64,000 bases of DNA from a virus, in the IMG/VR virus record IMGVR_UViG_3300031746_000008, positions 17,725 to 81,724 of that record, one strand, 5' to 3'. Shown in pieces: positions 6,640 to 37,207 of this stretch. Numbering within the stretch: the stretch's first letter is position 1; each line of letters begins with the position of its first letter. The notes under the pieces were generated by a model. The model worked only from the letters and a program-made list of their open reading frames with translations. It was not told the origin of the DNA and ran no database searches. The translations under genes and the position numbers were made by a program.

Positions 6640-7265
6640 TGGGCAAATTTATTGATTTAACGGGATTAAAATTTGGAAGATGGACAATTCTTAAACAAAT
6701 AAACACCAACAAAAAGAAATCTAGATGGAAATGTGAATGTAGTTGCGGAATCATAAAAAATATAGACGGATATAGTTTAAGAACAGGAGATTCAAAAAGT
6801 TGCGGATGCCTGCACAAAGATATAATGACCAAACATGGGCTTAGCAATTCTCATATTGATAAAATATGGAAATCTATGATTCAAAGGTGTACCAACCCCA
6901 AAAATCCAAGATATAAAGATTACGGAAATAGAGGCATTACGGTTTGCAAAAGGTGGTTGCCTAAAAATAACGGATTTATTAATTTTCTTAATGACATGGG
7001 ACTACCGCCAAGCAAGAAGCATCAGATAGATAGAATTGATAACAATAAAGGATATCATAAAAAGAATTGTCGATGGAGCACCAATAAAGAAAATAATTAC
7101 AACAGAAGAGATAGCCATATGTTAACATATAAAGGTAAAACACAATGTATTGCAGCCTGGGCCGAAGAATATAATCTTCCTTACGATACACTTCGGACAA
7201 GAATAAGGAGGGGTTGGAATATTGATAGAGCATTAAACGAACCCATCAGGAGAAAAATAAAATAA
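6639..7265 (+). CDS. Zinc/HNH-type putative homing endonuclease
   Basis: Family hallmarks in order: FIDLTGLKFGRW, CECSCG/KSCGC, YGNRGITVCKRW, an HNH-like IDRIDNNKGYHKKNCRW, and the tail GWNIDRALNEPIRRK. Its ATG overlaps the stop of the truncated IMPDH copy (TAATG). Its own stop overlaps the ATG of the complete IMPDH-like gene. The final Arg-Arg codons (AGGAGA, 7248-7253) double as that gene's Shine-Dalgarno. It therefore separates two versions of the same 5' coding region. Confidence 0.8.
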   Translation: MGKFIDLTGLKFGRWTILKQINTNKKKSRWKCECSCGIIKNIDGYSLRTGDSKSCGCLHKDIMTKHGLSNSHIDKIWKSMIQRCTNPKNPRYKDYGNRGITVCKRWLPKNNGFINFLNDMGLPPSKKHQIDRIDNNKGYHKKNCRWSTNKENNYNRRDSHMLTYKGKTQCIAAWAEEYNLPYDTLRTRIRRGWNIDRALNEPIRRKIK

Positions 7266-9331
7266 TGTTTAAAAAATCATATAAATTTTCTGACATAGCA
7301 ATTTATCAAAAAGAGAATATTTGCAAAAGTCGGCTTGACACAAAAATAAAAAGCGAGATAATTCGCGGAGTAATCCGTCCACTTCCCCTTTTGGCAGCGA
7401 ATATGTCAACAGTCACGAATGCGGAATTCTCGATAGGGCTTTATAGGCTTGGGGCTATGGGGGTTTTACACAGAGCTTTTCCAAATACAGATGATTATAT
7501 ATCGGAAACAAAAAAAATAACAAAGGAAATTCCCTCTGTTGCGGTTTCCATTGGAATAAAAGATTCAGATTATATATTGGTTGAAAAATTAATAAAAGCT
7601 GGATCTAACATTATTTTCGTCGATGTAGCTCATGGTTTTAATAAATATGCATTACAAATGTGCCAACATATAAAAAAATTCTATCCAACAATAAAAGTTG
7701 TCGCCGGAAATACTATTAATCCTGATATGATAGGGATGTTCAATGATTATGTAGATGCAATAAAAATCGGCATAGGTGGTGGTAATTCCTGTTCGACGGC
7801 GACAGTAGTTGGTTGTACAAAAAATCAATTTTCTGCTATCTATGATTTAAAAGAAATCTCACAAAAATATGGTATGCCAATCATTAGTGACGGGAACATT
7901 CGTTGCCCCGCCGATTTCACCAAAGCTATCGGGGCAGGAGCTAGTTGTGCTATGGCTGGTAGTATATTCGCCAGATGCCCAGAGAGTGCTTCAGAAACGA
8001 TAGAAATTGATGGGATAAAGAAGAAAATTCTGGCGGGCATGTCATGTTATAGCGACGACACAGAAATATTAACCATCAATGGATGGAAAAATTTTTCAGA
8101 AATAAAATTATCTGACGATTTAGCAACTTTAAATACAGAAACAAAATTAATGGAATTTCAAAAACCAACAAATATTTTTAATTATAATTATAACGGGGAA
8201 ATGATAAATATAAATCATAAAGCTATTGATTTATTAGTAACACCAAATCACAGAATGTATGTTGCTAAACGAGCAAGAATTAAGGATGGATATAAAGAAA
8301 AATTTAAATTCGTTAAGGCGGAACGGTGTTGTAAGGAAAATTTTAAGTATCAAAAAATATGCGGATGGAAGGGAGAATATTCCAAATTTTTTAAGATACC
8401 CGATGTTGTCTCTGGATATAAAAATAAATATAAGAAAATAGGAACAAATTTTCTGACAGAAGAATGGATTGATTTTTTTGGATTCTGGTTAGCAGAAGGG
8501 TGGGCAAATAAAAGAATATCAAAATCAAAAAAACATATCAGTTATAATCCTAATCATTTTGTGTATTCCATAAGTATTTCAAATAATAATAAAAAATTGA
8601 TAAATCATTATGTAACCTTATTAAGAAAATATAATATTGGTTCCTTTGTAAGAAAAAGGAATAAAAATTATGAACTTACAATACAAAACATGCCCCTTTG
8701 CAGTTATTTGATGAAATTTGGGAAGGCTCATGAAAAATTTATTCCGAAAAAAATTAAAAATCTACCGACTAAATTATTAGAGATTTTAATAAATTCAATA
8801 TTTCTCGGTGACGGTTGTAAAAACAGAAATTCTATAACTAGTTCTTCCACTAAATTTATAGACGATATATCAGAGATATGTATAAAATGTGGATTAACTC
8901 CAACAATTCACTTGAATCATCCAAAGGGATCTTTAGGAGAAATTAATGGGAAAAGTTTCGTTAGAAAATATGATTCATTTTCTGTTTATGTAGGTAAATA
9001 TTGGCATAACCCCACCATCCTCCCAAAACACTATAGTTTTATAGATTATAGTGGCAAAGTGTATTGCGCAGAGGTTCCTAATGGAATATTATGTGTAAGA
9101 AGAAACAATAAATATACGTGGTGTGGCAATAGTGAATATGTCCAGAATAAATGGAAGGGTGGTTTAAAACCAGGAACTTCGGCAGAGGGCAAATTAATTC
9201 ATCTTGACATAGGAGAACCAGTAGAATCACTTTTAAATAGGTATGCGGGGGCATTAAGAAGCGCGATAAGTTATGCCGGTTTTGATAACATTCAAGATTT
9301 TCAGAGGGGGTGTGAATTTCTTCTGATATAG
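7265..9331 (+). CDS. IMP dehydrogenase/GMP reductase-like enzyme with intein
   Basis: TIM-barrel purine enzyme interrupted by a 362-residue intein (residues 261-622); the spliced product would be 326 residues. Extein signatures: AANMSTVTN near the start, the phosphate and catalytic loop IGGGNSCSTATVVGC with the active-site Cys, SDGNIRCPADFTKAIGAGA, and after the intein SEYVQNKWKGG. There are no CBS domains, and the length fits GMP reductase or a minimal IMPDH, so I cannot separate the two. It supplies guanine nucleotide balance for phage DNA synthesis. Start codon follows AGGAGA in the upstream endonuclease. Confidence 0.85.
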   Translation: MFKKSYKFSDIAIYQKENICKSRLDTKIKSEIIRGVIRPLPLLAANMSTVTNAEFSIGLYRLGAMGVLHRAFPNTDDYISETKKITKEIPSVAVSIGIKDSDYILVEKLIKAGSNIIFVDVAHGFNKYALQMCQHIKKFYPTIKVVAGNTINPDMIGMFNDYVDAIKIGIGGGNSCSTATVVGCTKNQFSAIYDLKEISQKYGMPIISDGNIRCPADFTKAIGAGASCAMAGSIFARCPESASETIEIDGIKKKILAGMSCYSDDTEILTINGWKNFSEIKLSDDLATLNTETKLMEFQKPTNIFNYNYNGEMININHKAIDLLVTPNHRMYVAKRARIKDGYKEKFKFVKAERCCKENFKYQKICGWKGEYSKFFKIPDVVSGYKNKYKKIGTNFLTEEWIDFFGFWLAEGWANKRISKSKKHISYNPNHFVYSISISNNNKKLINHYVTLLRKYNIGSFVRKRNKNYELTIQNMPLCSYLMKFGKAHEKFIPKKIKNLPTKLLEILINSIFLGDGCKNRNSITSSSTKFIDDISEICIKCGLTPTIHLNHPKGSLGEINGKSFVRKYDSFSVYVGKYWHNPTILPKHYSFIDYSGKVYCAEVPNGILCVRRNNKYTWCGNSEYVQNKWKGGLKPGTSAEGKLIHLDIGEPVESLLNRYAGALRSAISYAGFDNIQDFQRGCEFLLI
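8045..9130 (+). mobile_element. Intein in the IMPDH-like protein, LAGLIDADG type
   Basis: Starts with Cys (CYSDDTEILTINGW, block A) after an LAGMS extein end. Block B is seen in VTPNHRMYV. Two LAGLIDADG-like helices occur: FFGFWLAEGW and INSIFLGDGC. The end is KVYCAEVPNG...TWCGN followed by Ser. The usual penultimate His is Gly here (CGN), a variant seen in some phage inteins. Excision would join AGMS to SEYVQNKW at a conserved part of the enzyme. Confidence 0.88.
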
Positions 9332-17485: not shown

Positions 17486-18886
17486 ATGAATGATTTGCTA
17501 AAAGTGTTTCCAAAAGGCAGTATTATCAAAAAATCTTTATCTAATAATTTTGGAAAAATACCTAAATATTGTAGTGATTATCTTATATCTCAACTTGTAG
17601 ATCCGGAAAATCCGGAAACCGGACTTTTAAAAATATATCAAATTTTAGATGAGCATTATGTTGAATCAAATAAAAAGGAACTAATCAAAAGCAAAATTAA
17701 AGAAATCGGTCGTTATTCTTTCTTGGGCAATTTACAGGCGAGGCTTGAAGAGGGGAAAAATGAATATTTCGCTACAATTAATGTTTTAGAAAACTCTAAC
17801 GTAAGAATTCACGAATCTGTATTGGAAAATTTTGGCGAAACATTATTAACAACCGGATGTTTCGGCTCGATGGTTGTAGCCTATGATCCAGACTATCTTG
17901 TTAAAAAGAAAAACTATCCGTTTGTCGTGATAGAATTTGTGCCTTTACAAATTACAAAAATAAATTTGCAATCATGGATAAATAATAGAAATAATTTTTC
18001 ATTTGAAGAATGGCTAAATTTAATAATTAATTCAATTGGATTTGATCCATCTAATTTGTCTTTTGATGAAAAAATGATCTATATTTATCGGTTAATGCCA
18101 TTTGTTGAACCAAATTTAAATCTAATAGAATTAGGTGGTGTAGAAACAGGGAAAACATTTTTTTATAGAAGTCTTAGTAATTATAGTTTTGTTTTATCTG
18201 GGTCTCAAACGACGGTCGCAAGTTTATTTTATAATAAGCTACGAAGAAAAGTAGGATTACTTGGCCAAAAAGATGTCGTCGCCTTTGACGAGATTGCACA
18301 TTCTAAATTTTCTCAACAAGATTTAACAGACATATTAAAAGATTATATGGGGAACGGGAGATTCGGGAGAGATAATTTTGATTTTTCTTCTGGGTGTTCA
18401 CTGGTGTTTCTCGGTAACATTGATTGTGATAGACAAACAAAAACAGTAAAGGGCTATTATCAACATTTATTTAAGCCTTTGCCCCCTAGTTTAAATTCGG
18501 ATCGTGCATTTTTGGATAGAATTCATGGGTATATAGGTGGCTGGGGTGCTGCACAAATATCGGAATCGTTAATGTCTAAAGGAGAGGGGTTTGTAGCAGA
18601 CTATTTAGCTGAAATTTTCCACAAACTTAGAAATAAAGACTACTCGCACGTCATTTCTTCTCGCGTTATTTTCGATAAAATTGGTATGCGGAATCAGATT
18701 GCGGTAACAAAAATGGTTTCCGCTATGATTAAAATATTATTTCCATTTTCTATTAATGACGATGAATTAAAACTGGTTATGGACAAGGCAATAGAATTAA
18801 GACAGAGAGTTGTCGATCAATTGACCATTATCAATTCTGGAGAATTTAAAGGAAATAAAATAGAATATAAAATAAAAGGAGAATGA
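17486..18886 (+). CDS. BrxL-like AAA+ protein without Lon protease domain
   Basis: Strong resemblance to BrxL of BREX systems: the N-terminal DEHYVES...KIKEIGRY pattern, then PFVEPNLNLIELGGVETGKT with Walker A at 217-224, SGSQTTVASLFYN, Walker B VVAFDE (264-269), the DYMGNGRFGR stretch, sensor VFLGNID (307-313), and SDRAFLDRIHGYIGGW with Arg345 as a likely arginine finger. BrxL normally continues into a Lon-type protease domain; this protein ends at 466 residues, right after the helical AAA+ lid. BrxL assembles into MCM-like rings on DNA, so DNA binding is likely. No other BREX gene is present. Confidence 0.85.
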   Translation: MNDLLKVFPKGSIIKKSLSNNFGKIPKYCSDYLISQLVDPENPETGLLKIYQILDEHYVESNKKELIKSKIKEIGRYSFLGNLQARLEEGKNEYFATINVLENSNVRIHESVLENFGETLLTTGCFGSMVVAYDPDYLVKKKNYPFVVIEFVPLQITKINLQSWINNRNNFSFEEWLNLIINSIGFDPSNLSFDEKMIYIYRLMPFVEPNLNLIELGGVETGKTFFYRSLSNYSFVLSGSQTTVASLFYNKLRRKVGLLGQKDVVAFDEIAHSKFSQQDLTDILKDYMGNGRFGRDNFDFSSGCSLVFLGNIDCDRQTKTVKGYYQHLFKPLPPSLNSDRAFLDRIHGYIGGWGAAQISESLMSKGEGFVADYLAEIFHKLRNKDYSHVISSRVIFDKIGMRNQIAVTKMVSAMIKILFPFSINDDELKLVMDKAIELRQRVVDQLTIINSGEFKGNKIEYKIKGE

Positions 18887-22687: not shown

Positions 22688-24412
22688 ATGAATGATTTTA
22701 TAATTAAACCAAAAGTAAAATTAATTGGAAAAAGCATAATAAATATAGATGGTCTAACGGCATTCTTAGAAGATTCAAATATGTGTTGGCCAGAATTTCA
22801 AAGAAAACTTGACTCGAATATTGATCTCGGCGACGACGATGGAAACTGGCTAATAGAGTTCGGCGGAAGAAATTGCTACCAATCATGGCCTAAAAAAGGA
22901 GAAGAATTAAAAGGTAGAACACACGATGAACACCTTAAACATTTAATAGATGTAGGACATGAAAGTTGTTTAGAACATGCGACTTTTAATTTCCAAATTT
23001 GGAATGTGTCAAGATCATTAACTCACGAACTCGTAAGAACTAGAATTGGGGTTGCATATTGTTTATCTGGAGATACTATAATTAATGGCGGAATTAAAAG
23101 TAACGGAAAATGGAGTAACAGAGGAGAAAAAAGAACTATAAAACAAATATATGAATGGACATTGAATGGTCTAAAAAGAGGGAATGTTAAAAAAATTAAA
23201 GTAAGATGTTTTGATGGAGAGCAATTTGTTCAAGCAAATATAAAATCTGTTCAAAAATCTGGTATTAAAAATACATATACGATGATTCTTGAAAACGGTA
23301 AACAAATATGTTGTTCTAAAGATCATAAATTTTTAGTAAAAACAAAGTTTGCAAATGTATGGAAATCTCTACAAAATATTAAAAAAAATGATTTAATCGC
23401 AACAAATGGAATTGTTTCCCACAAATCTAAAGAATGGTTATATGAACAATATTATATTAAAAATTTATTGCCAAAAGAAATTGCGAATATATGTAGAGTT
23501 AGTAGGCAGACTATAATGAATTGGATTAAATATTTTAATATACAAAAGTCTATTCGACCGCCAATAACAGAGTTAACAAGAAAAAAATTAAGTGATAGAA
23601 AAAGCAAAAATAATAGCCCAGCGTGGAAAGGAAATCTGGCAGGGATAGAAGCTGGAAGAGCAAGAGCAAGAAGATGGTATAAAAGTAGGCCGTGTGAAAA
23701 ATGTCGTTCTATAAATAATATTGTAAGACATCATATTGATAGAAATACGTTAAATAATGATATTAACAATATTATATTTTTATGTAGTTCCTGCCATAGA
23801 AAACTTCATAATGATGAAGATGGACACCCTAATTGTCTAACAATAAAATGGACAAAAGTAATAGATATTAAATATTGTTGTAAACAAATGACTTACGATT
23901 TAGAAATTGATCATCCTGCACATAATTTTGTTGCTAATGGATTCGTAACTCATAACTCACAATTATCACAGAGATATGTAGATTCCTCTAATGTCTCTTT
24001 TATTATTCCGGGAGCTATTTGCGAACTAGGAATTAAAAAACCAGAAATTCTAGAGAAATGGAAAGAATTTTGCTTAAAATCAAGAAATTTCTATGAAGAA
24101 TTAACAATAGAACTTTCAGAATTATATAAAAACATTGAAAATAAAACAGAAAAAAGAAAAAAAGCTAGGCAAGCAGCGAGAAGTGTCCTACCAGGATGCA
24201 CAGAAACGAAAATCATGACAACTTTAAACGGAAGATCCGTTAGATATTTTATGAGTCTAAGAGGAGGAGAAGGTGTAGAACCTGAAATAAGATCTTTGAG
24301 TGTTGAAATGTTCAAAATAATGCAACAAGAATTTCCTCTTATTGTGTACAAAATGGAACTTTTTAAACTCCAGGATGGAAGCGAGGGGGTGCGTAGAATT
24401 TTAAATGAATAA
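22688..24412 (+). CDS. thyX: Flavin-dependent thymidylate synthase ThyX with intein
   Basis: Extein features: GGRNCYQSW, the GHESCLEHATFNF block with the conserved His, and the ThyX signature RTRIGVAY + SQLSQRY, which the intein splits exactly. LPGCTETKIMTTLNGRS and the RxxF...RGG segment follow. The spliced enzyme would be 275 residues, normal for ThyX. It converts dUMP to dTMP with FAD and methylene-folate. ATG follows CAAGGAGAATTGAA. The 3' end overlaps an endonuclease gene by eight bases. Confidence 0.93.
   Translation: MNDFIIKPKVKLIGKSIINIDGLTAFLEDSNMCWPEFQRKLDSNIDLGDDDGNWLIEFGGRNCYQSWPKKGEELKGRTHDEHLKHLIDVGHESCLEHATFNFQIWNVSRSLTHELVRTRIGVAYCLSGDTIINGGIKSNGKWSNRGEKRTIKQIYEWTLNGLKRGNVKKIKVRCFDGEQFVQANIKSVQKSGIKNTYTMILENGKQICCSKDHKFLVKTKFANVWKSLQNIKKNDLIATNGIVSHKSKEWLYEQYYIKNLLPKEIANICRVSRQTIMNWIKYFNIQKSIRPPITELTRKKLSDRKSKNNSPAWKGNLAGIEAGRARARRWYKSRPCEKCRSINNIVRHHIDRNTLNNDINNIIFLCSSCHRKLHNDEDGHPNCLTIKWTKVIDIKYCCKQMTYDLEIDHPAHNFVANGFVTHNSQLSQRYVDSSNVSFIIPGAICELGIKKPEILEKWKEFCLKSRNFYEELTIELSELYKNIENKTEKRKKARQAARSVLPGCTETKIMTTLNGRSVRYFMSLRGGEGVEPEIRSLSVEMFKIMQQEFPLIVYKMELFKLQDGSEGVRRILNE
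23060..23956 (+). mobile_element. Intein in ThyX with HNH endonuclease
   Basis: 299 residues (125-423). Block A is CLSGDTIING; block B is CCSKDHKFLV; the end YDLEIDHPAHNFVANG...THN is followed by Ser. Between them are a helix-turn-helix (LPKEIANICRVSRQTIMNW), the SPAWKGN motif and an HNH nuclease with paired cysteines (CEKC, then HHIDRN, CSSCHRK). Splicing and homing functions both look intact. Confidence 0.92.
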
Positions 24413-30386: not shown

Positions 30387-30692
30387 TTGAAAACAGCAGA
30401 AATTCATTTATTATATTTTAAACAGGGCGATGACTTACAAGCGTGTCTAGAGGGGGCGGATTATAATATTGTTCAAGGACTAGAAAATCATTCAGAAATG
30501 CTCAAATACTGTGGTCGTCATTTAGATAAAATTAGAAATCTTATTAAAAATAAATATTTTAAAGAAATTAAAAATATAAAAATAGATGCAGATTGTCATT
30601 TCATATCCATCGAAGGTCCAGACGATTTTATTGATGAATTAGTTGAAAAAGAACTCGCGGAAATTCACGAATACGAAGAAAGTATTGATTAG
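30387..30692 (+). CDS. Small hypothetical protein
   Basis: 101 residues with a TTG start after AACAGGAGA. Acidic, mixed alpha/beta, ending LAEIHEYEESID. It overlaps the ribonucleotide reductase start by one base and may be co-translated. No domain recognised. Confidence 0.6.
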   Translation: MKTAEIHLLYFKQGDDLQACLEGADYNIVQGLENHSEMLKYCGRHLDKIRNLIKNKYFKEIKNIKIDADCHFISIEGPDDFIDELVEKELAEIHEYEESID

Positions 30693-33600
30693 TGGAAAAT
30701 ACTCTCCCAATTTACGAACCTTCAGGATTCGCTCTTCAGATATTTAAAGATCGTTATGCGATAAGTCAAGACGAGGGATTCCAGGAAGCGTGTCGTCGTG
30801 TAGCTAACTTTATGGCAAGTGCAGAAGATGGAGAAAAAATAAAAGAATTTGAAAAAAAATTCTATGAAATATTGAGTCAGAATAGATTAGTTCCTGGCGG
30901 AAGAATATTCCGTGGGGCAGGACGAAAAAAATCTGCTATGCTTAATTGTTTCGTAGTAAAATGTGGTGACAGTAGAGAAGAATGGGCACAATTACTATAT
31001 GATATAACAGTAATTACAAGTCTTGGTGGTGGCGTTGGATGCAATTTTAGCTCAGTAAGACCAAGAGGAACACCAATAAAAGGCAGTGGTGGAACCGCTA
31101 CTGGGGCTGTAAGTTTGATGAAAATGGTAGATGGTATATGTAATGAATTAAGAGAAGGCGGCGGGAGAAGATGTCTCCCAAAGGGATCGCTAATACATAC
31201 TTATAACGGACTAATCAAAATTGAAAATATTAAAATTGGAGATATTGTACAAACGGGATTAAACAAATACGATAAAGTTATTGCATCTGAACGCACCGGA
31301 AATCAAGAAATAGTTTTAATTGATACACAAATGGGTATATTTAAATCTTCTTTAAATCATAGATGGGCTACTCTAAAAAATTTAACTGGTAAAGTAGAAT
31401 GGAAGCTTGCCAAAGATTTAATTTATGGGGACAGAATTTTATTTATTCCAGAAGAAATACAAGGGCATAAAACAAAATTGCCCGAATATAATTATATTAA
31501 ACCAAAAATGTCCACAACATGCAAGGATATTACAATACCGACCCTGGATACAGAAATTGCATGGCTTTTTGGATATTTGCATGGGAATGGATGTGTAGAA
31601 ATCTTAAACGAAGGAAACAAGGGCACTGTTTCATTTTCTTGTCCATATGATATTCCTGAAATACACAATAGAATTGTTAAAAATATAAAAAGATTCGGAG
31701 ATAATTTACATATAAATGATTACTTTCAAACGAAAGAAAAATGTAGTAAGCCTCGTGTTTGTTCAAAACAACTTGCAGAATACTTATCTCAATTTAAATT
31801 ACCCCACCAAACAATGAACGTGCCTGATTTTATTTTACAAGGATTGCCAGAAATTAGAAAGGCATACTTGGCGGGGTTATTAGATGCAGATGGATATCTT
31901 GGAAAAACAAAAAAGAAAACTTTGCCCAAAATAGCATCATCCGTCTATCCAGATTTTTTAAGACAAATAAGAGCCGTTCTTTCTTCTCTTGGTATAGTCT
32001 CTAAAACTAGACTTGATAGGGAAGCCACAGGAGAATGGAAAGACATGTATTCTGTTGCAGCATTTTCTTATTTTGGAATAGAAAAAATTAAAAATGATAT
32101 ATCTCCATATTCTTTAAAATATGCCAGAGATGGCATCCAAGAAAGAAAAAAGGAACAATTTTCATTAACAGTACCAAGAAAAATGTTACGAGAATATAAT
32201 AACAGAGGGAATTTTAGTCCTGCGTATTGGACAGATCTTAAGAATTCGGAAAAAGCAAAAATGGAGTGTAGTTGGAAAAAATTTATTTTGACAGAAGGAG
32301 ACAGAGATTTTCTTCCTATTAAAGTTTTAAGCATAACAAGACAAAATGAAAAAGAAGAAACATATGATATCCAGATTGAACATGATGCGAAATTTATATC
32401 CGAGGGATTATTGGTACATAATTCCGCGCTAATGTTTTGTTTAAGATACGATCATGGAGATATTGAAGAATTTTTACGTGTCAAATTAGACGAGAAGGAA
32501 TTAAATAATGCTAATATTAGCGTATTAATAGACGATAAATTTTTAGACTTAGTAGAAAAAGATAAAGATATAATATTGGAATGGGCAGGAAAAGAAATAA
32601 AAACTGTTAAAGCAAAATGGTTATATGACAAGATAATAGAAAATTCTTTGTCGTGCGGGGATCCTGGAATTTTATCTATAGGTAATGCAGATAAATATAA
32701 CAATATATGGTGGGTTGCTCCTATGTCATCCACTAACCCTTGTGGTGAACAATGGTTGCCGGTATATGATGCATGTACACTGGGATCAATAAATTTATCT
32801 GTCCATGTAACAAGTAACGATGAAATAAATTGGGACTTATTAGATGATACAATTCGTATGGGAGTAAGATTTCTAGATAATGTTTTAGACAAAAATGAAT
32901 ATCCCCTCGAAATAATTAAAAAAACATGTCAAAATCACAGAAGAATTGGGCTTGGAATTTTAGGCTTACATGATATGTTCCTTAAAATGGGAATAAAATA
33001 TAGTTCAGAAGAGGCATTGAAAATAACAGATAAAATTATGCTCTTTATAAAAAAGAAAGCTTATGAAGCAAGTGTTTTTTTGGGGGTGGAAAAGGGATCA
33101 TTCCCCCTTCTTGATAGGAAAAAATTCTTAGAAAGTGGATTTTGTAAAGAATGTTTGACTATATCTACAAGAAAAAAAATATTATCTTATGGGATTAGAA
33201 ATTGCGCGATATTATCTATACAACCAACTGGGACAACAAGTATAGTGGCTGGTTGTAGTTCTGGTATAGAGCCTTTATTCTCTCCGGTTTATCGCAGGAA
33301 TTTTAATAAACATAAAGATATTCATTCAAAACTTACAAATAAATCAACAGAAATTGTTATTCATCCACTATTAAAAGAATTTATAGAAAAGGGAAAAGAT
33401 TATTCTCATTTTGAGGGTGCTCACGAAATATCCCCAGAGCAACACTGTAAAATACAATCAATATGCCAGAAACATATAGACGGAGCCATCTCGAAAACTA
33501 TAAATTTGCCCAAAGATACAACAAAAAATCAATTATCAAATTTAATTAAAAAGTATATGTATGATCTCAAAGGAATAAGTATTTTCCGAGATGGAAGCAA

Positions 33601-33721
33601 GGGCGAAAGTCCACTAATGCCTCTTCCAACAAAAGAAGCAGAAAAATATTTAAAAGAAATCACAACAAAGGTAGAATCTACTGACAATAGTTGTCTTAAT
33701 GGGAAATGCTCATTAGAATAA
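30692..33721 (+). CDS. nrdJ: Adenosylcobalamin-dependent (class II) ribonucleotide reductase with intein
   Basis: GTG start. Extein landmarks: LVPGGRIFRGAG, then LNCFVV (first active-site Cys), ITSLGGGVGCNFS, STNPCGEQW with ACTLGSINL, IQPTGTTSIVAG, and a C-terminal redox pair in CLNGKCSLE. A NrdJ-type enzyme fits the 592-residue spliced length and the absence of a small-subunit gene. The intein occupies residues 161-577. It reduces ribonucleotides using a B12 cofactor from the host. Confidence 0.9.
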   Translation: MENTLPIYEPSGFALQIFKDRYAISQDEGFQEACRRVANFMASAEDGEKIKEFEKKFYEILSQNRLVPGGRIFRGAGRKKSAMLNCFVVKCGDSREEWAQLLYDITVITSLGGGVGCNFSSVRPRGTPIKGSGGTATGAVSLMKMVDGICNELREGGGRRCLPKGSLIHTYNGLIKIENIKIGDIVQTGLNKYDKVIASERTGNQEIVLIDTQMGIFKSSLNHRWATLKNLTGKVEWKLAKDLIYGDRILFIPEEIQGHKTKLPEYNYIKPKMSTTCKDITIPTLDTEIAWLFGYLHGNGCVEILNEGNKGTVSFSCPYDIPEIHNRIVKNIKRFGDNLHINDYFQTKEKCSKPRVCSKQLAEYLSQFKLPHQTMNVPDFILQGLPEIRKAYLAGLLDADGYLGKTKKKTLPKIASSVYPDFLRQIRAVLSSLGIVSKTRLDREATGEWKDMYSVAAFSYFGIEKIKNDISPYSLKYARDGIQERKKEQFSLTVPRKMLREYNNRGNFSPAYWTDLKNSEKAKMECSWKKFILTEGDRDFLPIKVLSITRQNEKEETYDIQIEHDAKFISEGLLVHNSALMFCLRYDHGDIEEFLRVKLDEKELNNANISVLIDDKFLDLVEKDKDIILEWAGKEIKTVKAKWLYDKIIENSLSCGDPGILSIGNADKYNNIWWVAPMSSTNPCGEQWLPVYDACTLGSINLSVHVTSNDEINWDLLDDTIRMGVRFLDNVLDKNEYPLEIIKKTCQNHRRIGLGILGLHDMFLKMGIKYSSEEALKITDKIMLFIKKKAYEASVFLGVEKGSFPLLDRKKFLESGFCKECLTISTRKKILSYGIRNCAILSIQPTGTTSIVAGCSSGIEPLFSPVYRRNFNKHKDIHSKLTNKSTEIVIHPLLKEFIEKGKDYSHFEGAHEISPEQHCKIQSICQKHIDGAISKTINLPKDTTKNQLSNLIKKYMYDLKGISIFRDGSKGESPLMPLPTKEAEKYLKEITTKVESTDNSCLNGKCSLE
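31172..32422 (+). mobile_element. Intein in NrdJ, LAGLIDADG type
   Basis: 417 residues from CLPKGSLIHTYNG to LLVHN, followed by Ser. Block B SSLNHRWATL; the homing domain has AWLFGYLHGNG and YLAGLLDADGYLG; block G is YDIQIEHDAKFISEG. It interrupts the conserved GGGRR/SALMFCL junction of the reductase, a site reported for other NrdJ/NrdA inteins. Confidence 0.92.
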
Positions 33722-33725
33722 GGGT

Positions 33726-34913
33726 GTGAATTTAGTGAATGATGAAAGAAAAAATCTCCAAGAAGCTGTAGATTCAGTAAAGAAATATGGTTCTATTGCG
33801 GCAGCGGCAAAAGTTTTGAAAATACCTAGAAAAACTTTGTCAGGAAGATACAACAAGGCACTGGATAAAGGATATGTTTCTGGAACCCCCATGCTTTCAA
33901 CAGAACAGGAAATAGGATTAGATTCAAAATTAAAAACGGTGGTTAGAGAAAAAAGAGATCTTCAGAAAAAATACGAAGAACTTCTAAAACTTTTTGAGTA
34001 CCAGTCTGGACAAATTAATACAATAGAATTGTTTAGTAAAAATATAGATTTAATTCAACACGAAAAAATTAAAATAGTTTCTGAAGGAAAGCCCTCCGAA
34101 TCAACAGCTATTATTTTATGCTCCGATTTACACTATGAAGAAACCGTTGATCCTAGAACGGTAGACGGTTTAAATGAATATAATATAACAATAGCAAAAG
34201 AGAGATTCCATAAAGTGTTTCAGAATGGATTAAAATTAATAGAAATGTGCAGAAGTAAATCAAATATTAAAAAACTTGTCTTGTGGCTAGGGGGAGACTT
34301 GATATCGGGTTATATTCATGAGGAGCTTGTGGAAAACAACGCCATGAGTCCAATAGAGGCAAGTATAGATGTTTATAAACTATGTGTTTCAGCAATAGAT
34401 TTTCTGATAGAAGCCGGAGATTTCAACGAGATAGTAATAGTAACAAGCGTAGGCAACCACTCTCGTACTACAGAAAAAATTAGAATATCCACCTGCGTGG
34501 AAAACAATTACGAATGGCTAATATACAATTTCTTGTCAAGCCACTACGAAAAATCAGATATAATTAAGTTTAAACTATCTAGAGGATATTTTAATTATTT
34601 AGATATATATGACTATACCGTAAGATTTCATCACGGAAACTTCATAAGATACTCTGGTGGCGTGGGGGGTATTAGTATACCCATTAATAAGGCAATAGCC
34701 CAATGGAACCAGGGTAAATATGCTGATCTAGATGTCTTTGGGCATTGGCACCAAAGATTGTCAAGCAAGAATTTTATAGTAAATGGATCAATAATTGGGT
34801 ATGGGCCTTATAGTCTTAGTATAAAGGCCGCGTTTGAAAAGCCCCAACAATCATTCTTTTTGGTACATCCGATATGGGGCAAAACCGTAGAAGCTCCTAT
34901 TTTTGTGGATTAA
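33726..34913 (+). CDS. HTH + metallophosphoesterase (DNA-repair-exonuclease-like)
   Basis: An N-terminal helix-turn-helix (GSIAAAAKVLKIPRKTLSGR) and a coiled-coil linker lead to a calcineurin-like nuclease: CSDLHYEE, LGGDLISG, VGNHSRTTE, FHHGN and GHWHQR (the terminal metal ligands). About 395 residues. Phages often carry such SbcD-like proteins. GTG start after AATAAGG. Confidence 0.8.
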   Translation: MNLVNDERKNLQEAVDSVKKYGSIAAAAKVLKIPRKTLSGRYNKALDKGYVSGTPMLSTEQEIGLDSKLKTVVREKRDLQKKYEELLKLFEYQSGQINTIELFSKNIDLIQHEKIKIVSEGKPSESTAIILCSDLHYEETVDPRTVDGLNEYNITIAKERFHKVFQNGLKLIEMCRSKSNIKKLVLWLGGDLISGYIHEELVENNAMSPIEASIDVYKLCVSAIDFLIEAGDFNEIVIVTSVGNHSRTTEKIRISTCVENNYEWLIYNFLSSHYEKSDIIKFKLSRGYFNYLDIYDYTVRFHHGNFIRYSGGVGGISIPINKAIAQWNQGKYADLDVFGHWHQRLSSKNFIVNGSIIGYGPYSLSIKAAFEKPQQSFFLVHPIWGKTVEAPIFVD

Positions 34914-34917
34914 AATT

Positions 34918-34977
34918 ATGCGCAAACTTATTGATTTAACCGGACAAGTGTTTGGAAAACTAGAAGTTGTAATATGA
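34918..34977 (+). pseudogene. N-terminal stub of a zinc/HNH endonuclease
   Basis: 19 codons, MRKLIDLTGQVFGKLEVVI then TGA, clearly the first residues of the zinc/HNH family. Nothing of the rest follows. It is the leftover of a deleted copy. Confidence 0.75.
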
Positions 34978-35060
34978 TGAGATGTACAAAAATATACAAC
35001 TTCCAATTAAAAATACAAATCCATTGTGGAAATATTTAAATGCATAATAAAGGAAAATAA

Positions 35061-36089
35061 ATGAAAAAGAAAAATTTAACAAAGAAAACAAAAATAACAA
35101 ACAAAGATGGAGTAGAAACTATTGCTATTGACACAAAAGAAGAATTAAAGAATGTTGCAAATTCATTACAGCTTGTAAAACTTAAGTGTGATATTATAAC
35201 TAATAAATTTCTTTGCCACAAAGAACAAGAAGTAGTAGAAGCAATACTTGAAATGGCAGAAGAATTTAAGAAAGATAAGAAAGAAGATATAAAATCCGAT
35301 AATTCTTTTGAAGCACTTGGCGAACTTGTTGAAGAATATGTTAAAGATAAATTTTTTAGTGCCGAAATTTTAGAGAGTATAGTTTTCATTTTTCAAACAT
35401 GTTCTGCCATTGCTATTGCCGATTCGTTTAATAATGATGCCCTTAAACAAGTATATGACGATGATCAAAATTTTACAATTGCTCTTGGAATTACTGTTCT
35501 TGCAGAAGGTATCTATAGTGGAGCAAAAAGAATATTAACAGGAGACGACGAAGAAGAGGAACCAGAAGAAGATTTAACAGGCCAAAAATTTGGTAATTTG
35601 ACAGTTCTTCGAAAAGCAACTGAAGAAGAGGTTGCCGAGGCAGAAGCGAATGGGGCTTTGGATGAATGTTGTTGTGAAAACGAAGAAAATGATTCAGAAA
35701 TAGAAGAGGAAGAGGAGATAGATGAGTACGATCTTATTCATAACGACAGATATATGGGGAGAAACAGTATAGTCACTCGCAGAGCTACAGAAGAAGACGT
35801 TAAAAAATTAGGTAAACATGGTGTTAAATTGGGATATCCATTAGAGTGGAGATCAACTATAGAAGAAGATATAGAGGAAGCTAAAGCAAATGGAACTTTT
35901 GAAAAAAGAATGATTAAAACTTATAAGGCTTACGAAGACACGCTCGGAAGATATGAAGATCCAGACCACGCCGAATACAAAGACTATGGAGGGAAAGGGG
36001 TCGGGTTAGCCACCGACTGCGACTGGAAAGAGCCAAAGGGTAAAGGTTTTGAAAATTTTCTAAAACACAATGGACTAGAACCAGAATAA
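35061..36089 (+). CDS. Unknown helical protein with acidic endonuclease-derived C-terminal domain
   Basis: Residues 1-165 are an unrecognised helical protein. After an acidic linker (GDDEEEEPEE) comes DLTGQKFGNLTVL (171-183), the zinc/HNH family signature. The tail (286-342) aligns with the same family: TYKAYEDTLGRYEDPDHAEY, DYGGKGVG, then KGKGFENFLKHNGLEPE. The middle is replaced by glutamate-rich, partly repeated sequence (ATEEEVAEAEANG; RRATEEDV; EEAKANG). The CDCG and KSCGC cysteines and the HNH block are gone, and basic residues have become acidic. It is not a nuclease any more and might mimic DNA or bind a partner. Confidence 0.7.
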   Translation: MKKKNLTKKTKITNKDGVETIAIDTKEELKNVANSLQLVKLKCDIITNKFLCHKEQEVVEAILEMAEEFKKDKKEDIKSDNSFEALGELVEEYVKDKFFSAEILESIVFIFQTCSAIAIADSFNNDALKQVYDDDQNFTIALGITVLAEGIYSGAKRILTGDDEEEEPEEDLTGQKFGNLTVLRKATEEEVAEAEANGALDECCCENEENDSEIEEEEEIDEYDLIHNDRYMGRNSIVTRRATEEDVKKLGKHGVKLGYPLEWRSTIEEDIEEAKANGTFEKRMIKTYKAYEDTLGRYEDPDHAEYKDYGGKGVGLATDCDWKEPKGKGFENFLKHNGLEPE

Positions 36090-36090
36090 A

Positions 36091-36816
36091 ATGTTTGACA
36101 TAATTTCTTATTGCTCAGCAAGTTATTTTTCAAAACTAGAAAAAACACTTAAAAATTGGAACGACCAATCTTCCGTAGAAAATATTTTTATCTACACAAA
36201 CGAAATAGATCAATCTGATCTTAACAAGTATAAAAATTTAAATAGAGTAAAATTTATTGAAATATTTGATGATGATTCGACATGTTTTGGTATAAATTGC
36301 GCAAGAAAGGCTGAATCATTAAAATATTTTATTAATAATAATAAATTTGAAAATATTCTTCTTTTAGATATTGATTGCTTAATTGTGAAGGATCTTAATA
36401 ATTTATTCAAAGAAAATGCAAATATTTTTGTTACAATTTATCCGGAAGTCAAGGAAAAATATAGAACAAATAATATAAGCGCAGGGTTCGTAGCACTTAA
36501 AAATTGTGATCAAATAAAAGATTTTATAAACCAGTGGGTAGAAAGACAAAAAAGTTTACATAGCGCTCCGTCGAGAGACCAGAGAGCACTTTCGGAATTG
36601 ATTACAGATTTATACAAAAATAAAAACGATATCTATAAAATCAAACTTTTAAACGGAAATGTGTTCAACTCACATCCATGTTCTGGTAGCAAAGGATATA
36701 TAGAGGAGTGGTTACATAGAATTAGAATCAACAAGCCATATATTTTACACTTTGCTTCGGGTTCAATAGATTCACAAGATATAATAGATAAAGCAATAAT
36801 AGCAGGTGGAGAATAA
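36091..36816 (+). CDS. Glycosyltransferase-like protein (GT-A fold)
   Basis: 241 residues with a nucleotide-sugar-transferase core: ENILLLDIDCLIV (DxD motif), later ISAGFVALKN and a final W/H-rich region (RINKPYILHFASGS) typical of GT8/GT77-type enzymes. Might modify phage DNA, a surface glycan or a host component; no substrate can be named. Confidence 0.65.
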   Translation: MFDIISYCSASYFSKLEKTLKNWNDQSSVENIFIYTNEIDQSDLNKYKNLNRVKFIEIFDDDSTCFGINCARKAESLKYFINNNKFENILLLDIDCLIVKDLNNLFKENANIFVTIYPEVKEKYRTNNISAGFVALKNCDQIKDFINQWVERQKSLHSAPSRDQRALSELITDLYKNKNDIYKIKLLNGNVFNSHPCSGSKGYIEEWLHRIRINKPYILHFASGSIDSQDIIDKAIIAGGE

Positions 36817-36817
36817 A

Positions 36818-37207
36818 ATGAACAATAATTCAATAGAATTTATGATAATAAAAGATAATAAACATTTTAATAAAATGGGTGTCATAGGTTCAAGAACTTT
36901 TAGTAATTATAAATATATGAAAGAGATTCTTGATAGTTTTCCTTTTTCTAAAATTGTAAGTGGAGGCGCGAAAGGCGCAGATAGTCTCGCAAGAAGATAC
37001 GCAGAAGAAAAAAATATTCCTATAACAGAAATTTTACCAGATTGGAATCAATATGGAAAAAGCGCCGGGTTCAAAAGAAATAAATCAATAATAGATCAAT
37101 CAGACGCCATCATAGCTTTTTGGGACGGTAATTCCAAAGGAACGGCGCATAGTGTTCGTCTTGCTAAAGAAGTCGGGAAAAACGTTTACGTATTTTGGAA
37201 GGAGTAA
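36818..37207 (+). CDS. SLOG-family (YspA/DUF2493-like) nucleotide-binding protein
   Basis: GVIGSRTFSNYKYM, then VSGGAKGADSLARRYA, a middle AxFW and DGNSKGTAHSVRLA fit the YspA branch of SLOG domains, related to DprA. Such proteins bind nucleotide-derived ligands and sometimes act in defence or counter-defence. ATG at 36818 chosen from the GGTGGAGAATAAA ribosome site. Confidence 0.8.
   Translation: MNNNSIEFMIIKDNKHFNKMGVIGSRTFSNYKYMKEILDSFPFSKIVSGGAKGADSLARRYAEEKNIPITEILPDWNQYGKSAGFKRNKSIIDQSDAIIAFWDGNSKGTAHSVRLAKEVGKNVYVFWKE

Follow-up and report, generated by a model that had tools for sequence, protein, structure and literature searches.

An acidic, HNH-less relative of DLTGQ-type homing endonucleases as candidate cargo of a phage homing-endonuclease slot

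A gene of 342 codons in a viral genome encodes a chimeric protein whose C-terminal half is, as judged from its sequence, derived from the DLTGQ/HNH homing endonucleases resident in the same phages. By the same comparison, the HNH block is gone from this half, as is one half of the zinc ribbon, and acidic helices and a Glu-rich linker have been added. We regard it as somewhat probable, at slightly better than an even chance, that the protein is a nuclease-dead chimera that is carried as cargo in a homing-endonuclease slot. The DNA analyzed, hereafter the window, is a stretch of 64,000 nucleotides (positions 17,725 to 81,724 of IMG/VR virus record IMGVR_UViG_3300031746_000008, an 82-kb record labelled G000), and the chimeric gene occupies window positions 35061-36089 on the plus strand.

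Organization of the chimeric gene

The frame of the chimera is unbroken over all 342 codons in three records, i.e., the window's own and the two IMG/VR contigs 3300032053_005343 (G001) and 3300031873_000356 (G002), the copies being 3-4 nt apart with one or two amino-acid changes and no frameshift. A plausible AAAGGA-like ribosome-binding site lies upstream of the gene, and the codon-position bias is strong in every segment, GC1 being well above GC3. Neither an Rfam RNA nor a terminator was found at the locus. The protein starts with a mostly helical, family-less N-terminal region (residues 1-165; 35061..35555, plus strand), for which six helices are predicted at low confidence. Residues 171-205 (35571..35674, plus strand) comprise the strand DLTGQKFGNLTVL (residues 171-183) and the first half of the zinc ribbon, followed by a Glu-rich insert and three similar acidic helices (35617..35896, plus strand), which occupy the position of the ribbon's second half. 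Finally, the acidic core at about residues 275-342 (35883..36086, plus strand) contains the core helix of the family, the YGG, the W and the FENFL helix and stops short of the HNH block.

The first-pass annotation, made from the sequence alone, had described the endonuclease-like part as fused to a phage protein. This could not be substantiated, as residues 1-165 have no above-threshold match in Pfam, NCBIfam, PHROGs, PADLOC or phage genomes and are encoded by no contig beyond the three records in the searched collections; that they were a pre-existing phage protein is an assumption. A weak match to phrog_14432 covers residues 77-142 (E 0.036), and a match of the chimera to the Pfam family NgoPII (E 0.005) was discarded since it lies below the curated cut-off. 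A membrane protein was also considered and rejected, the best 19-residue window reaching 1.64 on the Kyte-Doolittle scale at unfavourable insertion energies; a soluble helical region is likelier. Peptide-pattern scans of IMG/VR with parts of the protein or the whole of it, together with scans of GTDB genomes, returned no diverged ortholog but the two near-identical copies only, and tblastn searches of phages and plasmids yielded ordinary HNH proteins over the core and nothing over the middle part. In related phages, identified by way of their DnaB and DNA polymerase, the N-terminal region of the chimera was not found; with no positive control of its own this negative search shows little, though the same records clearly matched the neighbouring glycosyltransferase. 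As the searched collections contain no diverged ortholog, selection on the chimera is not measurable.

Kinship with the DLTGQ/HNH homing endonucleases

A profile HMM was built from 29 DLTGQ/HNH homing-endonuclease paralogs of the same phages, with the chimera left out. The chimera matches this profile with an E-value of 9.3e-11 (Z=10000), residues 171-194 contributing 8.8 bits and residues 275-341 contributing 35.3 bits, and the PHROG family phrog_374 (HNH endonuclease) matches residues 166-335 (E 1.4e-7). At the level of sequence, the likeness of the C-terminal part to the DLTGQ/HNH family is real and far above chance, and the membership of an acidic, HNH-less C-terminal part in this family, as proposed in the first-pass annotation, is borne out by both profiles. 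Its statement that the HNH block is missing was equally correct: the block (DRIDNN...NCRW) and the catalytic residues are absent, the gene stops directly after the FENFL helix at 36089, and the ATG of the glycosyltransferase gene follows 2 nt on at 36091. Moreover, the helical repeat region that is found C-terminal of the HNH block in the paralogs is missing.

A complete zinc ribbon of the family has the form CxCxCG...SCGC. In the chimera, the first ribbon Cys is replaced by D201, the SCGC knuckle aligns with DVKK, the His of the KHG motif is absent and the Cys of the RC motif is replaced by Y298. Half of the ribbon cysteines are gone and a complete zinc ribbon is not present. The zinc cysteines had been described as missing, which holds for the first ribbon Cys, the SCGC knuckle and the RC Cys but not for C203, C205 and C320, which are retained.

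The divergence is distributed unevenly. In the DLTGQ strand the similarity between the chimera and the paralogs (0.58) is the same as among the paralogs, whereas in the core it is 0.39 vs 0.54, with 14 of the 24 conserved core columns kept. In the family tree, the chimera has by far the longest branch (3.99; median 0.74), and its residue make-up differs from that of the paralogs. Within the core, identity to the paralogs drops more in conserved columns (from 0.92 to 0.63) than in variable ones (from 0.31 to 0.25). The conserved columns have thus not been kept in preference, a finding that speaks against full constraint on the family fold.

Predicted structure and charge

The structured domain on which the earlier reading had depended was predicted only in part. 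AlphaFold2, run on the chimera with 26 paralogs in the alignment, gave a mean pLDDT of 46.9; the best-modelled blocks lie within about residues 265-309 and 320-342 (pLDDT ~63-79), and outside the core the prediction is unreliable, the acidic linker having a pLDDT below 50 and the N-terminal region being mostly helical at low confidence. The model of the paralog family (pLDDT 85) contains a zinc-ribbon-like sheet, the core helix, the FxNFL helix and a hairpin-helix at the HNH block. Compared with it, the predicted chimera keeps the two helices and lacks the hairpin. Fold searches with both models against solved structures gave no significant match, and the family profile matches I-HmuI (PDB 1u3e) weakly over the HNH block (E 0.28).

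The charge was compared with that of 26 paralogs across the alignment between DLTGQ and the C-terminal end of the core. Here the chimera has a net charge of -21, whereas the paralogs average +14.0 (sd 3.4, range 8 to 21, n=26); for the core alone, the values are -2 and +7.1 (sd 2.7, range 2 to 13), respectively. The whole protein has a net charge of -35 and a pI of 4.6. Residues 161-226, with a net charge of -26, hold the bulk of the acidity, which stems chiefly from the Glu-rich insert, the acidic helices and neutral-to-acidic changes. Many acidic residues stand where the paralogs have Asn, Ser or Thr and not Lys or Arg, and K176, K275, K286, R297, K307 and K312, at basic positions common to most paralogs, are still basic. 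A wholesale conversion of basic to acidic residues, as had been suggested, is therefore not supported, the conserved basic positions being mostly basic still, and the term "charge-inverted" fits the region as a whole but not its individual residues, in view of the core charge and the conserved basic residues.

The three acidic helices, at about residues 188-198, 244-254 and 267-278 (r1 to r3), resemble each other beyond shuffled sequences in the pairs r1/r2 and r1/r3; the similarity of r2 and r3 is not above that of shuffles. No repeat beyond GAA-rich stretches underlies these helices at the DNA level. A second strongly acidic protein is encoded in G000 (L031:3195-4124; 309 aa, net charge -31), directly upstream of an HNH gene, and has no sequence kinship to the chimera.

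Alternative explanations

Truncated HNH genes are common in phages, amounting to 56 of 268 in lactococcal Skunavirus (PMC12724721), which makes a non-functional relic the main rival. Here, an endonuclease would have inserted in or beside an accessory gene, become truncated and fused in frame, and the product would be drifting, its acidity being due to GAA-type codon expansion and chance. The long branch, the failure to keep conserved core columns preferentially and the mostly low confidence of the structural model all agree with such decay. However, the frame has stayed unbroken in three records, the ribosome-binding site is present and the bias of GC1 over GC3 is strong in all segments. Furthermore, when neutral evolution with AT-biased mutation was simulated in a simple way, 3.9% of the runs gave a core charge of -2 or lower and 0.3% the observed fraction of Asp and Glu, a result that mildly favors a directional charge change. 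We consider the relic possible but rather doubtful.

The first-pass annotation had pointed to a DNA mimic or anti-nuclease protein, i.e., an acidic pseudo-endonuclease that would imitate DNA or the surface of a partner and thereby block a homing endonuclease or a host nuclease. The protein is strongly acidic, its endonuclease-derived part has moved from about +14 to -21, and at least 15 related endonucleases in the same genomes are possible targets. However, the negative charge is concentrated in the probably disordered Glu-rich linker and the core is near neutral; in addition, neither a fold match nor a match to PADLOC or any named protein family was obtained, and a mimic is unlikely.

As a further candidate, a catalytically dead regulator would bind a DNA site through its endonuclease part, acting as a repressor or competing for homing sites. 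It could draw on the precedents of CapR (PMC10448857) and of autorepression by endonucleases of phage T4 such as I-TevI (PMC2988022), and K275, R297, K307 and K312 are retained. The broken zinc ribbon, the missing C-terminal helical repeat region of the paralogs and the strongly negative net charge speak against DNA binding and leave this explanation quite improbable. An acidic antagonist, a pseudo-endonuclease with the shape of the core kept and the charge opposite that blocks homing endonucleases of the same or of co-infecting phages, is very improbable.

The slot and the scar of a neighbouring endonuclease

The chimera lies between an exonuclease and a glycosyltransferase gene, and this slot differs between related phages. 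It is empty in G007, with 2-3 nt between the genes, holds one intact HNH gene in G010 and an intact HNH gene directly upstream of the chimera in G002, the only relative with the two genes side by side, and it contains a scar plus the chimera in the window and in G001. These alignments mark the chimera as an accessory gene in a slot for homing endonucleases. Of the exonuclease gene on its upstream side (window 33726-34913 vs L002:3091-4242), two quite different types occur: the window and G007 share one, G002 and G010 the other.

The scar consists of two parts. A stub of 19 codons, MRKLIDLTGQVFGKLEVVI followed by a stop (34918..34977, plus strand), is the 5' end of a DLTGQ-family HNH gene that was cut at a recombination or deletion junction. 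The second part (34972..35043, plus strand) has no open frame with a start and stems from the 3' end of the adjacent HNH gene, which in G002 ends in YDEMYKNIQLPIKNTNPLWKYLNA and a stop; its DNA is near-identical to the 3' end of the intact G002 gene (L002:4235-4987). Alignment with G001 and G002 places the junction at about 34971, where 18-19 codons of the 5' end of a different HNH gene are joined to the last G002-type codons. This junction is common to the window and G001, whereas in G002 an intact DLTGQ/HNH gene of 250 aa stands at the place of the stub, which makes the stub a scar left by an adjacent endonuclease, separate from the chimera, with which it had been grouped.

The window and G002 share a block of about 1.6 kb that is ~99.6% identical within diverged flanks. 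They differ at five positions over 34972-36500 (~99.7% identity), at six in 36501-36750 and at 34 in the next 250. On the upstream side of 34972, the exonuclease genes of the two belong to different types and the ribonucleotide reductase (RNR) alleles are diverged. Such a near-identical block between diverged flanks suggests that the chimera probably moved as homing or recombination cargo, and judging from the alignment it appears to have been spread by recombination. Like the cargo of HEG islands, it adjoins a homing-endonuclease gene and lies within the exchanged segment. Ordinary phage recombination without an endonuclease cut could have exchanged the tract as well and would leave the same pattern.

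All copies lie in a single recombination tract and are 3-4 nt apart, so their near-identity reflects recent exchange and is not readable as purifying selection. For the same reason, dN/dS values of 0.08-0.48 (NG86) are uninformative and were set aside. Frameshifts in relatives had been named as a sign of relaxed selection, and none occurs in the two relatives, but copies this close within a tract say little on selection. As a whole, the evidence on selection is compatible with exaptation and with decay alike.

DLTGQ/HNH genes are unusually dense in G000 and its relatives G001 and G002, occurring at about 15 sites of the 82-kb record and in part fused to GIY-YIG domains. A GIY-YIG/HNH gene of G002 (L038:2994-3689) is interrupted by a TAA stop, and the G001 copy is intact. 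Furthermore, the RNR gene (window 30692-33721) carries an intein with a LAGLIDADG endonuclease, and the G002 allele (L002:149-3076) has an intein too, apparently inserted at a different site; a ThyX-type thymidylate synthase (window 22688-24412) contains an intein (Intein_splicing, 144-423) with HNH matches inside, and a protein similar to IMP dehydrogenase/GMP reductase (window 7265-9331) shows, in its second half, a LAGLIDADG match that may mark a further intein. A SLOG-domain protein (window 36806-37207) weakly matches the PADLOC model ShosA (E 4e-7).

For the favoured reading, cargo in a homing-endonuclease slot, the following course may be envisaged. By its sequence, the C-terminal half comes from a DLTGQ/HNH endonuclease that was stripped of its HNH block and of one half of its zinc ribbon and acquired the acidic helices and the Glu-rich linker. 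The resulting gene may then have spread through co-conversion or recombination, with the neighbouring endonuclease as the driving force on at least one occasion; that endonuclease would later have been destroyed in the lineage of the window. Tentatively, the protein might be made and act via protein-protein contacts of its helical N-terminal region and its acidic tail and not via DNA cutting.

Comparison with known systems

Ocr, ArdA and DMP19 are acidic DNA-mimic proteins. The chimera shares with them the strong negative net charge of a phage-encoded protein, but it has no match to them in sequence or fold, and its charge resides mainly in a low-confidence linker and not on a compact folded surface. 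Another comparison is with the DLTGQ-type HNH homing endonucleases, i.e., phrog_374 and relatives, with which it has in common the DLTGQ strand, the CxC of the ribbon, the Y-G-G, the W and the FxNFL positions of the core. They differ in possessing the HNH block, the SCGC knuckle, the KHG His, the RC Cys and the C-terminal helical repeat, and the chimera differs from them in its extra helical N-terminal region and in its charge (-21 vs ~+14).

Parts of homing endonucleases are known to be reused without the nuclease, as in CapR of PLE satellites (PMC10448857). CapR is likewise composed of such parts; however, it is a non-nuclease relative of the T5orf172 homing endonucleases and acts as a repressor with an intact zinc-finger DNA-binding domain, whereas the chimera has a broken ribbon, is acidic and comes from another endonuclease family. 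Moreover, it is established that free-standing phage endonucleases drive co-conversion of adjoining DNA and that the defunct endonuclease I-TevIII of phage T4 is mobilized by another one, MobE (PMC2988022). I-TevIII resembles the chimera as an endonuclease gene that was inactivated by deletion and whose spread can depend on another endonuclease; in contrast, it is intron-encoded and has no new domain fused, and mobilization of the chimera by its neighbour is inferred. Endonuclease genes also border exchanged segments and carry cargo in HEG islands (PMC10448857), and the endonuclease SegB amplifies anti-defence genes (PMC13096335). As in HEG islands, nuclease genes stand at the boundary of an exchanged segment beside genes of the RNR region, but here a single flanking endonuclease is found (in G002) and the cargo is itself endonuclease-derived.

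Nuclease-dead proteins derived from endonucleases are already known as a kind, and the acidic chimera is a new variant. Were it no more than a drifting relic, it would count as an ordinary by-product of the turnover of endonucleases. If it is made and selected, it would represent a second route, beside CapR, from homing endonucleases to new phage proteins, one on which the DNA-binding character has been reversed. In its four states, i.e., empty, endonuclease, endonuclease plus chimera, and scar plus chimera, the slot would provide a concrete case of cargo that moves with an endonuclease and outlives it.
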